Virus record (IMG/VR): IMGVR_UViG_3300047548_001032
Location: 1 to 40,467 of that record
Reading direction: 5' to 3' (one strand)
DNA from: a virus
DNA: 40,467 nucleotides
Below the pieces are notes generated by a model. The model did not search any database. It worked only from the letters and a program-made list of their open reading frames with translations, and was not told the DNA's origin. Both the position numbers and the translations under genes were made by a program. Positions 10,461 to 20,838 of this stretch are shown piece after piece; positions within the stretch are counted from its first letter, which is position 1; each line of letters starts with the position of its first letter.

Positions 10461-10612
10461 GATCCTGTCCTGTCGGTGTTGTGGGCGTACCAGCGGGCGT
10501 GGTCGGGATTGATGCCCCGGTACTCCCCCGCCTTGTACCGCTTGCGGACCTCGTCCCCGCCGTGGCGCATGAGGTCGCAGATGAAGCGGGTGAGGGCGCT
10601 GTTAAGCTGCAT
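10457..10612 (-). CDS. Small hypothetical protein, 51 aa
   Basis: Coupled at both ends: its ATG at 10612 lies inside the end of the primase gene and its stop overlaps the dut start. The peptide ([20 protein letters not shown], then [20 protein letters not shown]) is basic and helical. Such small genes between primase and dut are usual in phages. Function unknown. Confidence 0.55.
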
Positions 10613-11510
10613 CGGCGTCTGCCCAGTCCCGGCCCGTCGCCTGCGGGATCATCACTTCAACCGAAAGCCTGAGGCGCGCGGCGAGGCGGTGCGCCAGTGC
10701 ATAGGCCGCTGCCTGTCCCCCAAATGCCGGGTCATTGTCCCCGAACACCACAACGGACGTTACCCCGGCAGGCGGTTGCCACTTGGCCAGCATGGTCGCA
10801 TTGAGCGCGGCCCATACCGGAACCCGGAACCGCTTAGCCGCTGCGATGGCTGTCTCGATGCCTTCCGCGATACCCAGTCTTTCGCCATGCACCGGGTAGA
10901 GACGCACCGCTGAACCTTCCGGCACTTCGCCCGGCATGAGAGCTCGGGGCGTGTCGATAGCGGCCTTTCCGTTCGGGCCGAGAAACGTCCGGTGTATCGT
11001 CGCCGGATGACCGTCTGGGCCATGCACGAGCGCCAGCATCGCCGGGTAGCGTTTGCCGTCCGGGGCATCACAGGCCGCATGGAATCGCAGGCAGGATGGA
11101 ACTTCCCCCGGCAGGACAGACCTTCCGGCAAGGTAGGTCGCCGCCATGTCGCCGGGCACGAGTTCCGTCGCATCGGCCCACATCCGGTTCATGCGCTCGC
11201 GCCGGGCATTTTCGTCCATCGGCCTGCGGACAGGTTCGGCCCGGACATGTCCGATGACCTTGTCCACTTCGCGCGCCGCCGTCTTGAAGTCCCATCCCTT
11301 GAGGCGTTTCAGGAACTCGAACCCGTCACCGGCCCCGCACTGCGAGCAAATGAAGCTGCCCTTGCCCTCTGAATTGTCCCAGCGGAAACGGTCGGTGCCC
11401 TCACAGAACGGGCAGGGGCCGTGCTTGCCACCCAAGAACCTGTTGCCATCAACTCCCATCGCCAGGAGGATGCCGCGCCACTTGCCGCGCGCTGCCTCGG
11501 TCGTGTTCAT
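10602..11510 (-). CDS. DNA primase, zinc finger plus Toprim
   Basis: 302 residues from the ATG at 11510, chosen because GGAGGAG lies right before it; a longer reading from 11609 would cover the helicase end. Zinc ribbon with Cys at about 33, 36, 55 and 58 (CPFCEGTDRF, ICSQCGAGDG). Toprim part: GIAEGIETAIAA near 215 with the conserved Glu, and VVFGDNDPAFGGQ near 260 with the DxD. There is no helicase domain, unlike T7 gp4, so it would work with the separate helicase upstream. It would make RNA primers at the fork. Confidence 0.85.
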   Translation of the reverse strand: MNTTEAARGKWRGILLAMGVDGNRFLGGKHGPCPFCEGTDRFRWDNSEGKGSFICSQCGAGDGFEFLKRLKGWDFKTAAREVDKVIGHVRAEPVRRPMDENARRERMNRMWADATELVPGDMAATYLAGRSVLPGEVPSCLRFHAACDAPDGKRYPAMLALVHGPDGHPATIHRTFLGPNGKAAIDTPRALMPGEVPEGSAVRLYPVHGERLGIAEGIETAIAAAKRFRVPVWAALNATMLAKWQPPAGVTSVVVFGDNDPAFGGQAAAYALAHRLAARLRLSVEVMIPQATGRDWADADAA

Positions 11511-12988
11511 GCGCTCCTCCGCTTGGCGAAGCGGATGTCCTTGGCGCGAACCCATGAAAGCACTTCCGGGGACGGCTGTGTTTCCCGCTCGATCAGGCCA
11601 CGGGGCCACACCCCGAACTTGTCGCGGTAGGTATGGGAAACCCAGCCTTTCGAGCGGTTGCGGACCCGAGCCACGCCAAGCAACTGCGAATAGAAAACCT
11701 GCTTGTCGCTGATCGTCGGCTTAGCCTTGCCGCGCGTGATTTCCTGCAACTCGCCTTCTTCGGTTTCGATCTCGCTCTGCCGCGTCGGCGTGAACCCGCA
11801 GACCGGGCATTCACGCACCTTGGGGGCCTTGAGCGTGTTGCAGGCAGGACATTCCTTGGGCATCGCCTCGCCCTGTTCCTTGCGCGTCTTGGGAGCCTTG
11901 TCCTTGCCGCTCAAAAGCCGGTCGTGGTGGATGTCCGTCACGAACCCGAGCCGGGCGTGATTGTCGGCATGGTCCAGCACAAGGCATGACTGCTTGCCCG
12001 GCGCGGTGCGAAGCCCCCGTCCAATGATCTGCACATGCAGCATCTCGGACTTCGTGGGCCGCGCCAGCACGATGCAGCGCACGTCCGCGTCAACGCCGGT
12101 CGTCAGCGTGCCGACGTTGCAGATCCCGGCAATCTCGCGCCGCGCCATCTTGTCGAACAGGACCTTGCGTTCAATCCGGTCGGTATGGGCATCGCAGTAC
12201 CCCATCGGCACGCCGGCAGCGAGGAACTGCGCTTGCAGCTTCGCCGCGTGCGCCCGGTCCACCGCGAACACCAGCGTCGGCTCCCAGTTCGCCAGCTTGA
12301 GCCACGTCTGGACGATGTCGGCCATCAGCACCGACTGGCTCATCACGTCGGACAACTGGCCTTCGTGGTAATCGCCTGCCACCGTCTTGACCCCGGACAA
12401 GTCGGGATGGTTCGGGGCATAGACCCGGAACGGCGAGAGGAACCCGGCGTCGATCAACTCCTGCATCCGAACCGGAACGATCAGGTCCTGCCAGTCCTCG
12501 GCCATGCCGCGCGCCCACGGCGTTGCCGATAGCCCGATGAAGGTATTTTGCGGGCGCTTGCCCATCCACTCGGACACTGCCTTGAACCGCAAGTGGCACT
12601 CGTCCACGATGATGACATCCACGTCCGGGCAACCGCGCTGCGCCAGCGTCTGCACCGAGCAGACTTGCACCGGAGCCGACATGTCCGTCAGTTCGTGGTT
12701 CGCCTGCATCACGCCGACATCGGCAATCCCCTCGTTCGCGAAGGCGTCAACCGTCTGGTCGATCAGGCTGATAGCGGGCACAGTGAACGCGACCGTACGG
12801 CCCTTAGCGAGCGCACCGTTGACGATCTCGGCGGCAAGGCGGGTCTTCCCCGCGCCAGTCGAGAGTTGGCAGACGGTGCGCCTATGCCCGGCCAAGTAGG
12901 ATTGCTTGAGGAGCGATAGCGCGCTCGACTGGTGAGGGCGCAAGGGGCGAGCGGTGAACGGGGCACCGAACAGCGGGAGCGAAGCCAT
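11507..12988 (-). CDS. Superfamily 2 DNA helicase
   Basis: 493 residues. Motif I STGAGKT (43-49), Ia TVPAISLIDQ (69-78), II DECH (129-132), III SATPWA (154-159), then the C-terminal helicase half with LTTGVDADVRCIVLARPT and motif VI QIIGRGLRTAPGK. After this comes a CPAC/CPVC zinc ribbon. This is the DEAD/SSL2-type helicase seen in phages of alphaproteobacteria, where it may replace a DnaB-type helicase. The ATG at 12988 has AGGGGGG upstream and overlaps the previous stop. Confidence 0.88.
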   Translation of the reverse strand: MASLPLFGAPFTARPLRPHQSSALSLLKQSYLAGHRRTVCQLSTGAGKTRLAAEIVNGALAKGRTVAFTVPAISLIDQTVDAFANEGIADVGVMQANHELTDMSAPVQVCSVQTLAQRGCPDVDVIIVDECHLRFKAVSEWMGKRPQNTFIGLSATPWARGMAEDWQDLIVPVRMQELIDAGFLSPFRVYAPNHPDLSGVKTVAGDYHEGQLSDVMSQSVLMADIVQTWLKLANWEPTLVFAVDRAHAAKLQAQFLAAGVPMGYCDAHTDRIERKVLFDKMARREIAGICNVGTLTTGVDADVRCIVLARPTKSEMLHVQIIGRGLRTAPGKQSCLVLDHADNHARLGFVTDIHHDRLLSGKDKAPKTRKEQGEAMPKECPACNTLKAPKVRECPVCGFTPTRQSEIETEEGELQEITRGKAKPTISDKQVFYSQLLGVARVRNRSKGWVSHTYRDKFGVWPRGLIERETQPSPEVLSWVRAKDIRFAKRRSA

Positions 12989-13518
12989 CAGCGTTGCCCC
13001 CCTGCAATGAGCTTGAGAGCAGGCCGCGACGAATGGAAATAATCCTCTTGGCCGGGTAGGTTTTCAGCCTTGTTATACCCGTGGGACATTTTGTCCCGGC
13101 GAGTGTGGGACATTTTGGCAGGAAAGTGTGGGACATTTTGCCCCGATATTTCGGCCAATTCGCCGTCGTCATTAGACGGGAACCCGTAACCGCAAAGCGT
13201 CAGCAGAGGGATGATTTCGACACGATATTGAGTGGCTGTCCCCCATCCGCCACGGGGATGAGACACGGTGACAAGTACGCCAGCATCGCGCAGCTTCTTC
13301 AGGCAACGGGCCACAGTCTTGACAGTGACCTTCGCGCGCTTGGCCAGCTTCTCCCGTCCGGGGTGAAAGACGTTGCGCCCAGCGTCCTTATGGTGCCACC
13401 AGAAGTTGAGCAGGGAGATAAGAATATCTCGCTCTGATCGCGTGATCGGCGCAGCCTTGACCGACTTGCGGATGAAACAGCGCAGGCTGTATTCCGGTGT
13501 TTCGCGGAAGTCCCTCAT
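12988..13518 (-). CDS. Winged-helix replication protein, origin-binding candidate
   Basis: 176 residues. Residues about 20-100 make a winged helix: ITRSERDILISLLNFWWHHK, then PGREKLAKRAKVTVKTVARC, then LKKLRDAGVLVTVSHPRGGW. This layout resembles the DNA-binding part of lambda O-like initiators. The rest is less ordered. The gene itself carries three 13-bp iterons (13081-13140), as the lambda O gene carries its own origin, and is followed by helicase and primase genes. So origin binding and helicase loading is a reasonable inference. Confidence 0.65.
   Translation of the reverse strand: MRDFRETPEYSLRCFIRKSVKAAPITRSERDILISLLNFWWHHKDAGRNVFHPGREKLAKRAKVTVKTVARCLKKLRDAGVLVTVSHPRGGWGTATQYRVEIIPLLTLCGYGFPSNDDGELAEISGQNVPHFPAKMSHTRRDKMSHGYNKAENLPGQEDYFHSSRPALKLIAGGQR
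13081..13140. repeat. Three iterons, candidate replication origin
   Basis: GTGGGACATTTTG occurs exactly three times, starting at 13081, 13105 and 13128 (24 and 23 bp apart, about two helical turns). Two copies share a codon frame and one does not, so the repeat is kept as DNA and not as a protein repeat. It lies within the replication protein gene. An AT-richer stretch follows at about 13030-13080. Confidence 0.65.
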
Positions 13519-17027: not shown

Positions 17028-17173
17028 TCGATCAGGCCCCGCTCGATCATCTCGGCCTGTGCGTCAGCGACCTTTTCGATCAGCCGAAAGTCATGGGCAT
17101 CAGCGGGAAATCCGTGCGCCAGTGCGTCGCGGATGCGGGCGATGATCGCGTCCAGTGCGTCGAGGGCCTTCAT
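17024..17173 (-). CDS. Small helical protein, 49 aa
   Basis: MKALDALDAIIARIRDALAH, then EKVADAQAEMIERGLIE: a helical hairpin with no Cys. The ATG at 17173 overlaps the stop of the DnaA-like gene (ATGA) and its stop overlaps the next small ORF. Function unknown. Confidence 0.55.
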   Translation of the reverse strand: MKALDALDAIIARIRDALAHGFPADAHDFRLIEKVADAQAEMIERGLIE

Positions 17174-17619
17174 GCTGCGGCCCTCGCCAGTTCACGCAGG
17201 CGGTTCAGCTTGGCGGCGTAGTCTGGGGAGTGTTCGGAAAGTATCGCAGCTTTCTCAACGCCATACGCGACAGTCGTATGGTTCATCTCGAACAGGCGTG
17301 CGATACATTCCAGCGGCACGCCTTGTTCGGCGGCAACGCGCCACACAGCGTATCTCGGATACACGGCTTCCCTCTGCCTGCTGTCCCGCCAGACATACCC
17401 AGGGCGCGTGCCGAACACCTCTGAAACCCGCATCGAAATCTCTTCGGTGCGGCGCTGCTGGCACGCCTGCCGGTGTTCGTGGGGGTCTTCGCCTCCAAGA
17501 AATTCCTTGAGCAAGTTGCGGAACTTTTTCGGGCTGCAACGGCAGCGCAGCGCAAGATCGGCAATCGAAACGCCTTGCACGAAACTCTCGTAGAATGGGC
17601 GGATTTCGTCCCTTGTCAT
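17170..17619 (-). CDS. DnaA domain IV-like DNA-binding protein
   Basis: 149 residues from the ATG at 17619, which overlaps the previous stop. The N-terminal 50 residues have a simple helix-turn-helix (GVSIADLALRCRCSPKKFRN). Residues about 60-140 look like DnaA domain IV: VSEVFGTRPGYVWRDSRQRE, then YPRYAVWRVAAEQGVPLECI, then ARLFEMNHTTVAYGVEKAA. The HTTV motif is the DnaA-box contact. No AAA+ part. It could bind DnaA-box-like sites on phage or host DNA to bring in or block replication factors. Confidence 0.75.
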   Translation of the reverse strand: MTRDEIRPFYESFVQGVSIADLALRCRCSPKKFRNLLKEFLGGEDPHEHRQACQQRRTEEISMRVSEVFGTRPGYVWRDSRQREAVYPRYAVWRVAAEQGVPLECIARLFEMNHTTVAYGVEKAAILSEHSPDYAAKLNRLRELARAAA

Positions 17620-17945
17620 GGCCGCGCCGCCCCCAGGTTTTCGAGAATGCGGGGGTGTTCTTCCCACAGTGCGCCGAGCAGCGACCTTGCTGCTCTGCCG
17701 GTTATCCGGTGAACGTCAGACCCAAGGGTGCCGGTGCCGCTTTCACCGTCCTTGCCGGAGCCGACCATCTTGCCGCGCTTGAGAAATACCTTCTCGCGCA
17801 GATGCGCCTCGCGCAGGGCAACAATGGTGCGGACGGTCGGCGCGGAGTTGAACTCTGCGAGGATGGCAGACCGGATGGCGCGGGCATCGCTCATGTAGGT
17901 CACGAGTGACTTTGCCATGCTGGTAGGCGTGCGATGCGGGGTCAT
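17616..17945 (-). CDS. Hypothetical protein, 109 aa
   Basis: Start at 17945 with GAGGG upstream, overlapping the stop of the 24-residue ORF by 4 nt. The protein (MAKSLVTYMSDARAIRSAIL, then TVRTIVALREAHLREKVFLK) is basic and helical with a flexible, Gly-rich middle (KMVGSGKDGESGTGTLG). The TVRTIVALREAHLRE stretch could be a DNA-binding helix pair. Not recognised. Confidence 0.55.
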   Translation of the reverse strand: MTPHRTPTSMAKSLVTYMSDARAIRSAILAEFNSAPTVRTIVALREAHLREKVFLKRGKMVGSGKDGESGTGTLGSDVHRITGRAARSLLGALWEEHPRILENLGAARP

Positions 17946-20589: not shown

Positions 20590-20838
20590 ATGCAAATCAC
20601 CCTTCGCCAGTTTGAACTGATCGAGACGCTGCATGATCGCCTCATGCGCGATCCGTTCGAGACGACCGTAGATCCGCGCGAGTGGATCAAGACGAGCAAC
20701 CGCCTGTTCGATGCGTGCGCCGATGCGATCGGCTTCCCGGCGGCGAACGACTTTGCTTCCGCGATGGATTGCGCGGCAGCGATCCTCTGCACGGCGCTTA
20801 TCAGCGAATCCGCCGTCCTGGACGAGGAGGCCGCGTGA
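20590..20838 (+). CDS. Hypothetical early protein, 82 aa
   Basis: First gene of the repressed rightward operon, ATG at 20590 with CAGGAG upstream. MQITLRQFELIETLHDRLMR, then WIKTSNRLFDACADAIGFPA, then SAMDCAAAILCTALISESAV: helical and soluble. Not recognised. Confidence 0.65.
   Translation: MQITLRQFELIETLHDRLMRDPFETTVDPREWIKTSNRLFDACADAIGFPAANDFASAMDCAAAILCTALISESAVLDEEAA

Follow-up and report, generated by a model that had tools for sequence, protein, structure and literature searches.

Three copies of a DNA word lying inside the gene for a 176-aa winged helix-turn-helix (wHTH) protein of the virus are most likely the sites that this protein binds to start genome copying. We put at about 85% the probability that these repeats are iterons of a replication origin of the phage lambda O type, which would be located inside the initiator gene and bound by the product of this gene; opening of the DNA would take place in the neighbouring AT-rich stretch. 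The whole 40,467-bp stretch of DNA that was analysed is further referred to as the window. The computational evidence comprises the repeats, their conservation irrespective of the codon frame, their place relative to the wHTH domain and the AT-rich stretch, the occurrence of the word in many initiator families, and an association between the recognition helix and the half-site in relatives.

The repeat array and its gene

Exact copies of GTGGGACATTTTG occupy positions 13081–13093, 13105–13117 and 13128–13140, the distances from start to start being 24 and 23 bp, as had been reported in an earlier reading made from the sequence alone (further, the sequence-only reading). On the coding (minus) strand the word has the form CAAAATGTCCCAC and is contained in the ORF 12988–13518. 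One copy is read as QNVPH and the other two as KMSH; hence the two codon frames noticed in the sequence-only reading were confirmed. When up to three mismatches are allowed, the window contains nine matches, which is the chance level, and the exact ones are these three only. For the null model each codon was redrawn from the synonymous usage of the phage itself with the protein sequence fixed. None of 20,000 such recodings of the 176-aa protein contained any 13-mer in three copies, and 523 contained one in two copies.

The copies differ in their symmetry: the one at 13081 forms a 6-3-6 dyad without mismatches, GGGACA-TTT-TGTCCC, the one at 13128 has one mismatch, and the one at 13105 retains one half only. 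The dyads start in phases 2, 1 and 1 within codons 125–146, approximately 375 bp into the gene and just past the wHTH domain. The GC content of the AT-rich stretch (Table 1) is at the 0.7th percentile among all 50-mers of the window, and neighbouring 60-bp windows go down to the 1st–5th percentiles. The cumulative GC skew, proposed in the sequence-only reading as a check, has no inflection near 13.1 kb and lends the origin reading no support. Another word, AGGCCGCGTGATG, occurs in the window three times, at 20828, 24744 and 25181.

Table 1. Coordinates of the features discussed in the text (window positions).
Feature	Position	Strand	Evidence or sequence
Primase, zinc ribbon and Toprim	10602–11516	−	Pfam Zn_Ribbon_Prim, Toprim_3; phrog_510 DNA primase, 2e-78
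SF2 (ResIII/DEAD) helicase, next downstream	11507–12988	−	Pfam ResIII, 4e-17; phrog_16 DNA helicase, 3e-81
Predicted 176-aa winged-helix replication initiator gene carrying the iterons	12988–13518	−	ORF; Pfam and PHROG profiles; AlphaFold2
Candidate unwinding element, AT-rich stretch	13029–13078	−	44% GC vs 61% GC in the genome; directly after the last iteron
Iteron 3 (last in gene order)	13083–13097	−	GGGACA-AAA-TGTCCC, perfect dyad adjoining the AT-rich stretch; read KMSH
Iteron 2	13107–13121	−	CTGCCA-AAA-TGTCCC, right half alone conserved; read KMSH
Iteron 1 (first in gene order)	13130–13144	−	GGGGCA-AAA-TGTCCC; read QNVP
Recognition helix with KTVAR	13285–13323	−	Residues 66–78; AlphaFold2 helix and alignment with homologues

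The wHTH gene belongs to the early replication and recombination module, whose order is annealing protein, exonuclease, SSB, NinB, RusA-like resolvase, wHTH gene, SF2 helicase, primase and dUTPase; the stop codon of the wHTH gene and the beginning of the helicase gene overlap. The assignment of a winged-helix gene next to a helicase and a primase, with the helicase of superfamily 2 and not DnaB, was correct according to both Pfam and PHROG. No match to a helicase loader (P/DnaC-like) or to DnaB was found among the 20 ORFs scanned. Further along, the ORF 17170–17667 (minus strand) encodes a protein of 165 aa that is similar to DnaA domain IV in its C-terminal half (Bac_DnaA_C 3e-7, just under the cut-off); to judge by this match, it resembles a stand-alone phage protein of the DnaA-box-binding kind.

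Homologues of the SF2 helicase were found in many phages. In six of these that were inspected, a primase gene follows wherever the record is annotated, and none has an iteron-bearing wHTH gene upstream of the helicase gene, which speaks against the origin reading: two (Vibrio phage 1.233.A and Pseudoalteromonas phage HS1) have a small wHTH gene there that contains no matching repeats, and four have something else. In the former two cases, replication of the module may thus start at another place.

The PHROG profiles label the 176-aa protein as "replication initiation" (4.9e-7 and 4e-6) and "O-like" (4.3e-4), which supports the origin-like interpretation given in the sequence-only reading. The Pfam matches to HTH_36 and HTH_Crp_2 are below the cut-off (HTH_36, PF13730: 21.4 bits against the cut-off of 25, E 2e-4), and the RepA_N head domain is absent from the Pfam matches. 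No convincing solved relative was found by sequence, and the Foldseek search with the protein model yielded generic wHTH matches, none below E 0.001. In the AlphaFold2 model, helices 55–62 and 66–78 and a two-strand wing extending to residue 100 form the wHTH fold, and residues 113–137 and 140–176, in the part where the iterons are encoded, are predicted to be disordered. In most cases the short tail following the iterons (12991–13020, minus strand, in the window, and its counterparts in the homologues described below) terminates with a peptide that contains GG (IAGGQR, IAGGRTHA, EGGDNE, QGGDDEGE), possibly a docking motif for the helicase or the primase encoded next.

Comparison with known in-gene origins

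The analogy with lambda drawn in the sequence-only reading is supported by several features. In both cases an O-like initiator gene contains inverted-repeat iterons with an A-tract centre, located directly after the segment encoding the DNA-binding head and followed by AT-rich DNA. The four annotated lambda iterons lie in codons 116–138 of O, are 20, 24 and 23 bp apart and start in phases 0, 2, 2 and 1, with AT-rich DNA after them. They are inverted repeats bound by O (PMC7466680), which makes this contact through its N-terminal half (PMC4488673). Three iterons were enough in older work, as reported in PMC7466680, and the in-gene arrangement is the lambda origin (PMC4488673, PMC7466680). Thus the window has a wHTH head related to O-like proteins, in-gene inverted-repeat iterons (one of the three being a half dyad) and an adjacent AT-rich region.

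The differences concern both the specificity and the partners. The half-site is TGTCCC in the window and GAGGGA in lambda; the recognition helices are KTVAR and KRCNE, respectively, the latter being placed by eye; and the AT-rich stretch of the window is milder (44% GC). Beyond a tail of about 30 residues after the last iteron, the window protein has no C-terminal body, and it has no recognizable domain that would recruit a helicase loader; residues 140–176 are predicted to be disordered. Further, the gene is accompanied not by a recognizable gene of a P/DnaC-like loader or a DnaB-type helicase, but by those of the SF2 helicase and the primase.

A similar layout is known for plasmids. The wHTH head of pSK41 Rep (RepA_N) binds Rep boxes located centrally in its own gene, and the ori-encoded stretch of this type is a linker dispensable for replication (PMC5703833). 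In the pPR9 Rep, the body of the pSK41 protein is combined with a phage-like pfam13730 head (PMC5703833), which provides a precedent for head exchange. The Rep–DNA complex 5kbj is among the Foldseek hits of the 176-aa protein, at E 0.05. The latter differs from the pSK41 and pPR9 proteins in being HTH_36/O-like by profile rather than RepA_N, and in having no primase-interacting C-terminal domain. The Rep gene of Lactococcus phage Tuc2009 also contains repeats in mixed frames (AACCAAATGTC-type) and is annotated as "contains origin of replication"; its repeat sequence is different, and the comparison covers the layout of the repeats. Other O-like and DnaD-like phage initiators carry in-gene repeats in mixed frames as well, with other motifs.

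An array in such a place could also be an intragenic operator, at which the wHTH protein represses or pauses its own operon while replication starts elsewhere. Indeed, initiators often autoregulate, and the sites are situated in an early operon upstream of the helicase and primase genes. However, the array is situated well within the gene, after approximately 375 bp, and the same layout constitutes the origin in lambda (PMC4488673, PMC7466680), unrelated initiators bear repeats in the same place, and the Tuc2009 gene with its in-gene repeats is annotated as containing the origin. We therefore consider the operator unlikely.

Recognition helix and half-site in two initiator families

Searches with the single 176-aa protein yielded no homologue. 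An alignment-based protein search produced six loci (L156–L161), of which L158 and L159 encode identical proteins, leaving five distinct homologues; L157 and L160 are contigs already reached via the DNA words (as L148 and L002, respectively). A repeated scan for homologues added no contigs. All five distinct homologues (30–39% identical to the window protein) bear two or three repeats at the same place, about 23 or 24 bp apart. In L157, L160 and L158/L159 (31–39% identity) these are two or three TGTCCC half-sites with spacings of about 23 and 24 bp, and the half-site is encoded as QNVP, KMS, QVSH, KCPT or ECPT depending on the copy and homologue. The retention of TGTCCC and of the near-23/24-bp spacing in other frames by these three homologues supports the selection at the DNA level that had been suggested for the window. 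A strong AT-rich stretch is present in the window and in L158, whereas in the other four homologues it is modest, at the 6–9th percentile only.

Conservation of the iterons in relatives had been proposed in the sequence-only reading as a check, and the repeats do persist there; where the word deviates, both copies change together, and so does the recognition helix. L161 has TGATAC in both copies and the helix ITVAR, and L156 has TGCACA in both copies and RTVAG, the window helix being KTVAR. Such concerted change is the pattern expected of sites bound by the gene's own product; in the window's own family this parallel is formed by two deviating homologues, L156 and L161.

The second family consists of L134 and its relatives, initiators of the "conserved phage C-terminus" type, chosen by conserved N-terminal peptides only. 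The sample of 80 viral loci, two phage records and L128 gave 74 distinct proteins. Their genes contain up to five dyads, at gene positions 328, 351, 374, 397 and 420, and given the 23-bp step these fall in all three frames. All 34 proteins with Asp in the recognition helix have C at base 3 of the half-site (100 of 100 dyads), whereas all 40 proteins with Lys have T, A or G there (C in none of the 115 dyads). The helices SEKTVKRAL and SSDTVKRAL form a near-minimal pair. A staphylococcal relative with Arg at this position has G, not C, at base 3 in its one clear dyad.

When mapped on a tree built from the C-terminal bodies, the label undergoes 13 changes, of which at least eight are forced by supported branches; hence the head and the iterons move together between bodies. 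The head tree requires six switches at best, one of them forced by supported branches. As the head and the iterons are only about 130 bp apart, linkage by descent accounts for part of the perfect association.

This association, which comes from the second family and not from that of the window protein, suggests that one amino acid of the initiator may set one letter of the DNA word. More generally, we find it somewhat probable that in O-like phage initiators the helix and the in-gene iterons make up a specificity cassette that can be exchanged and whose code can be read: in one family, Lys/Arg versus Asp sets base 3 (TGTCC or TGACC versus TGCCC or TGCAC). If so, GGGACA-AAA-TGTCCC would be a binding word common to many diverged initiators, and the code together with the shared word would make phage replication-specificity groups predictable from sequence. 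In 34 iteron-selected families the helix [KR]xxxR is present throughout, in an alignment that was placed by eye and thus is weak evidence alone. A universal code in which [KR]x[VILA]xR would mean TGTCC was rejected: among initiators collected without regard to iterons, L219 has the helix RTVLR with GCAATGTGCCAA, and L244 has KTVRR with AAATGACCACCC.

Instead of the gene's own product, a host factor or a different protein of the phage might bind the repeats. Phages and prophages from several bacterial phyla do share the word, and the window encodes the DnaA domain-IV-like protein at 17170–17667. Yet the half-sites vary with the recognition helix of the initiator itself in two families, and DnaA boxes are not in excess in the window (five observed, eight expected), which makes such a binder quite improbable.

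Distribution of the dyad word, proposed mechanism and implications

Two copies of TGGGACATTTTG at a distance of 4–30 bp were found in five viral contigs, in four of them within wHTH initiator-type ORFs. The paired word GACAWWWTGTCC (dyad GACA-WWW-TGTCC) was found in at least 120 viral contigs, compared with eight for the control, the reversed dyad of equal composition. Among the matches listed, ORFs of at least 85 aa spanning the repeats fall into 64 clusters when grouped at 70% identity, and into 41 groups when linked by blastp at 1e-5. About half of the 64 clusters are clear wHTH initiators, the remainder including short or antisense frames; the representative ORFs of these clusters among the matches listed hit phrog_270 (23), phrog_678 (21) and phrog_428 (19), all of them replication initiation. 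The HTH_36 matches of other iteron carriers reach E 2e-16. The blastn search with the iteron array itself found zero phages and one plasmid match at the chance level, and among 385 Alphaproteobacterial genomes there was one with a match, where the repeats are absent.

Initiators collected by profile, with iterons ignored in the selection, often bear other in-gene repeats in mixed frames; hence iterons within the gene are frequent in such initiators, the TGTCC dyad being one of several words that recur. O-like initiators from bacterial genomes (L169, L209, L212, L219, L243, L246, L253, L261) have four to nine in-gene repeats of other sequences, such as CAACCCGGCACA in five copies and GCAATGTGCCAA in six, most of them in mixed frames.

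The bare paired word was also found in 14 bacterial-genome loci, with a clear wHTH initiator only at L012. In Clostridia (L010, L014, L016, L021) and Dechloromonas/Azonexus (L009, L015, L017), GGGACAAAATGTCCCA-type words occur outside initiator genes with a period of 34 or 29 bp, and the clostridial copies are accompanied by AAACGTCCC or its complement. These periodic words are possibly ends of mobile elements; no transposase was found in nine ORFs scanned, eight near the non-initiator copies and one in the viral contig L003.

The view that the window array is what is left of an insertion into the gene, either a transposon end or a repeat of the interspersed kind, would agree with these paired words outside initiators, several of which have fixed 29- or 34-bp periods. 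Still, it is very improbable: the gene is intact, the homologues hold the array at the same place with its sequence changing in concert, and the association with initiator genes recurs. Selection for a peptide repeat with the DNA repeat as a by-product, for which KMSH in two of the three copies could speak, can practically be dismissed, given that the word is read as QNVP, KMS, KCPT or ECPT depending on the copy and homologue, that AlphaFold2 predicts the tail to be disordered, and that none of the 20,000 recodings reproduced the DNA repeat.

For the in-gene origin we propose the following mechanism. The 176-aa protein would bind the AAA-TGTCCC half-sites via the recognition helix KTVAR, presumably with one dimer per dyad, and would bend the array of approximately 60 bp. 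Opening would then occur in the AT-rich stretch that follows the last dyad, the perfect one, and the SF2 helicase and the primase encoded next would be recruited and assemble at the opened stretch. We infer that the array is the site at which replication starts in vivo.

Detailed knowledge of in-gene origins comes from a few model phages and plasmids. Our results suggest that such origins are widespread among O-like phage initiators and that a single dyad word turns up again and again in many protein families. They also suggest that, in one family at least, the half-site can be predicted from a residue of the helix. If so, origins could be located in uncharacterized phage genomes, it would be predictable which phages or satellites replicate from each other's origins, and initiator specificity could be tested with one residue and one base. 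The contribution of the window to this class is a small initiator that has no recognizable loader domain and is paired with an SF2 helicase.
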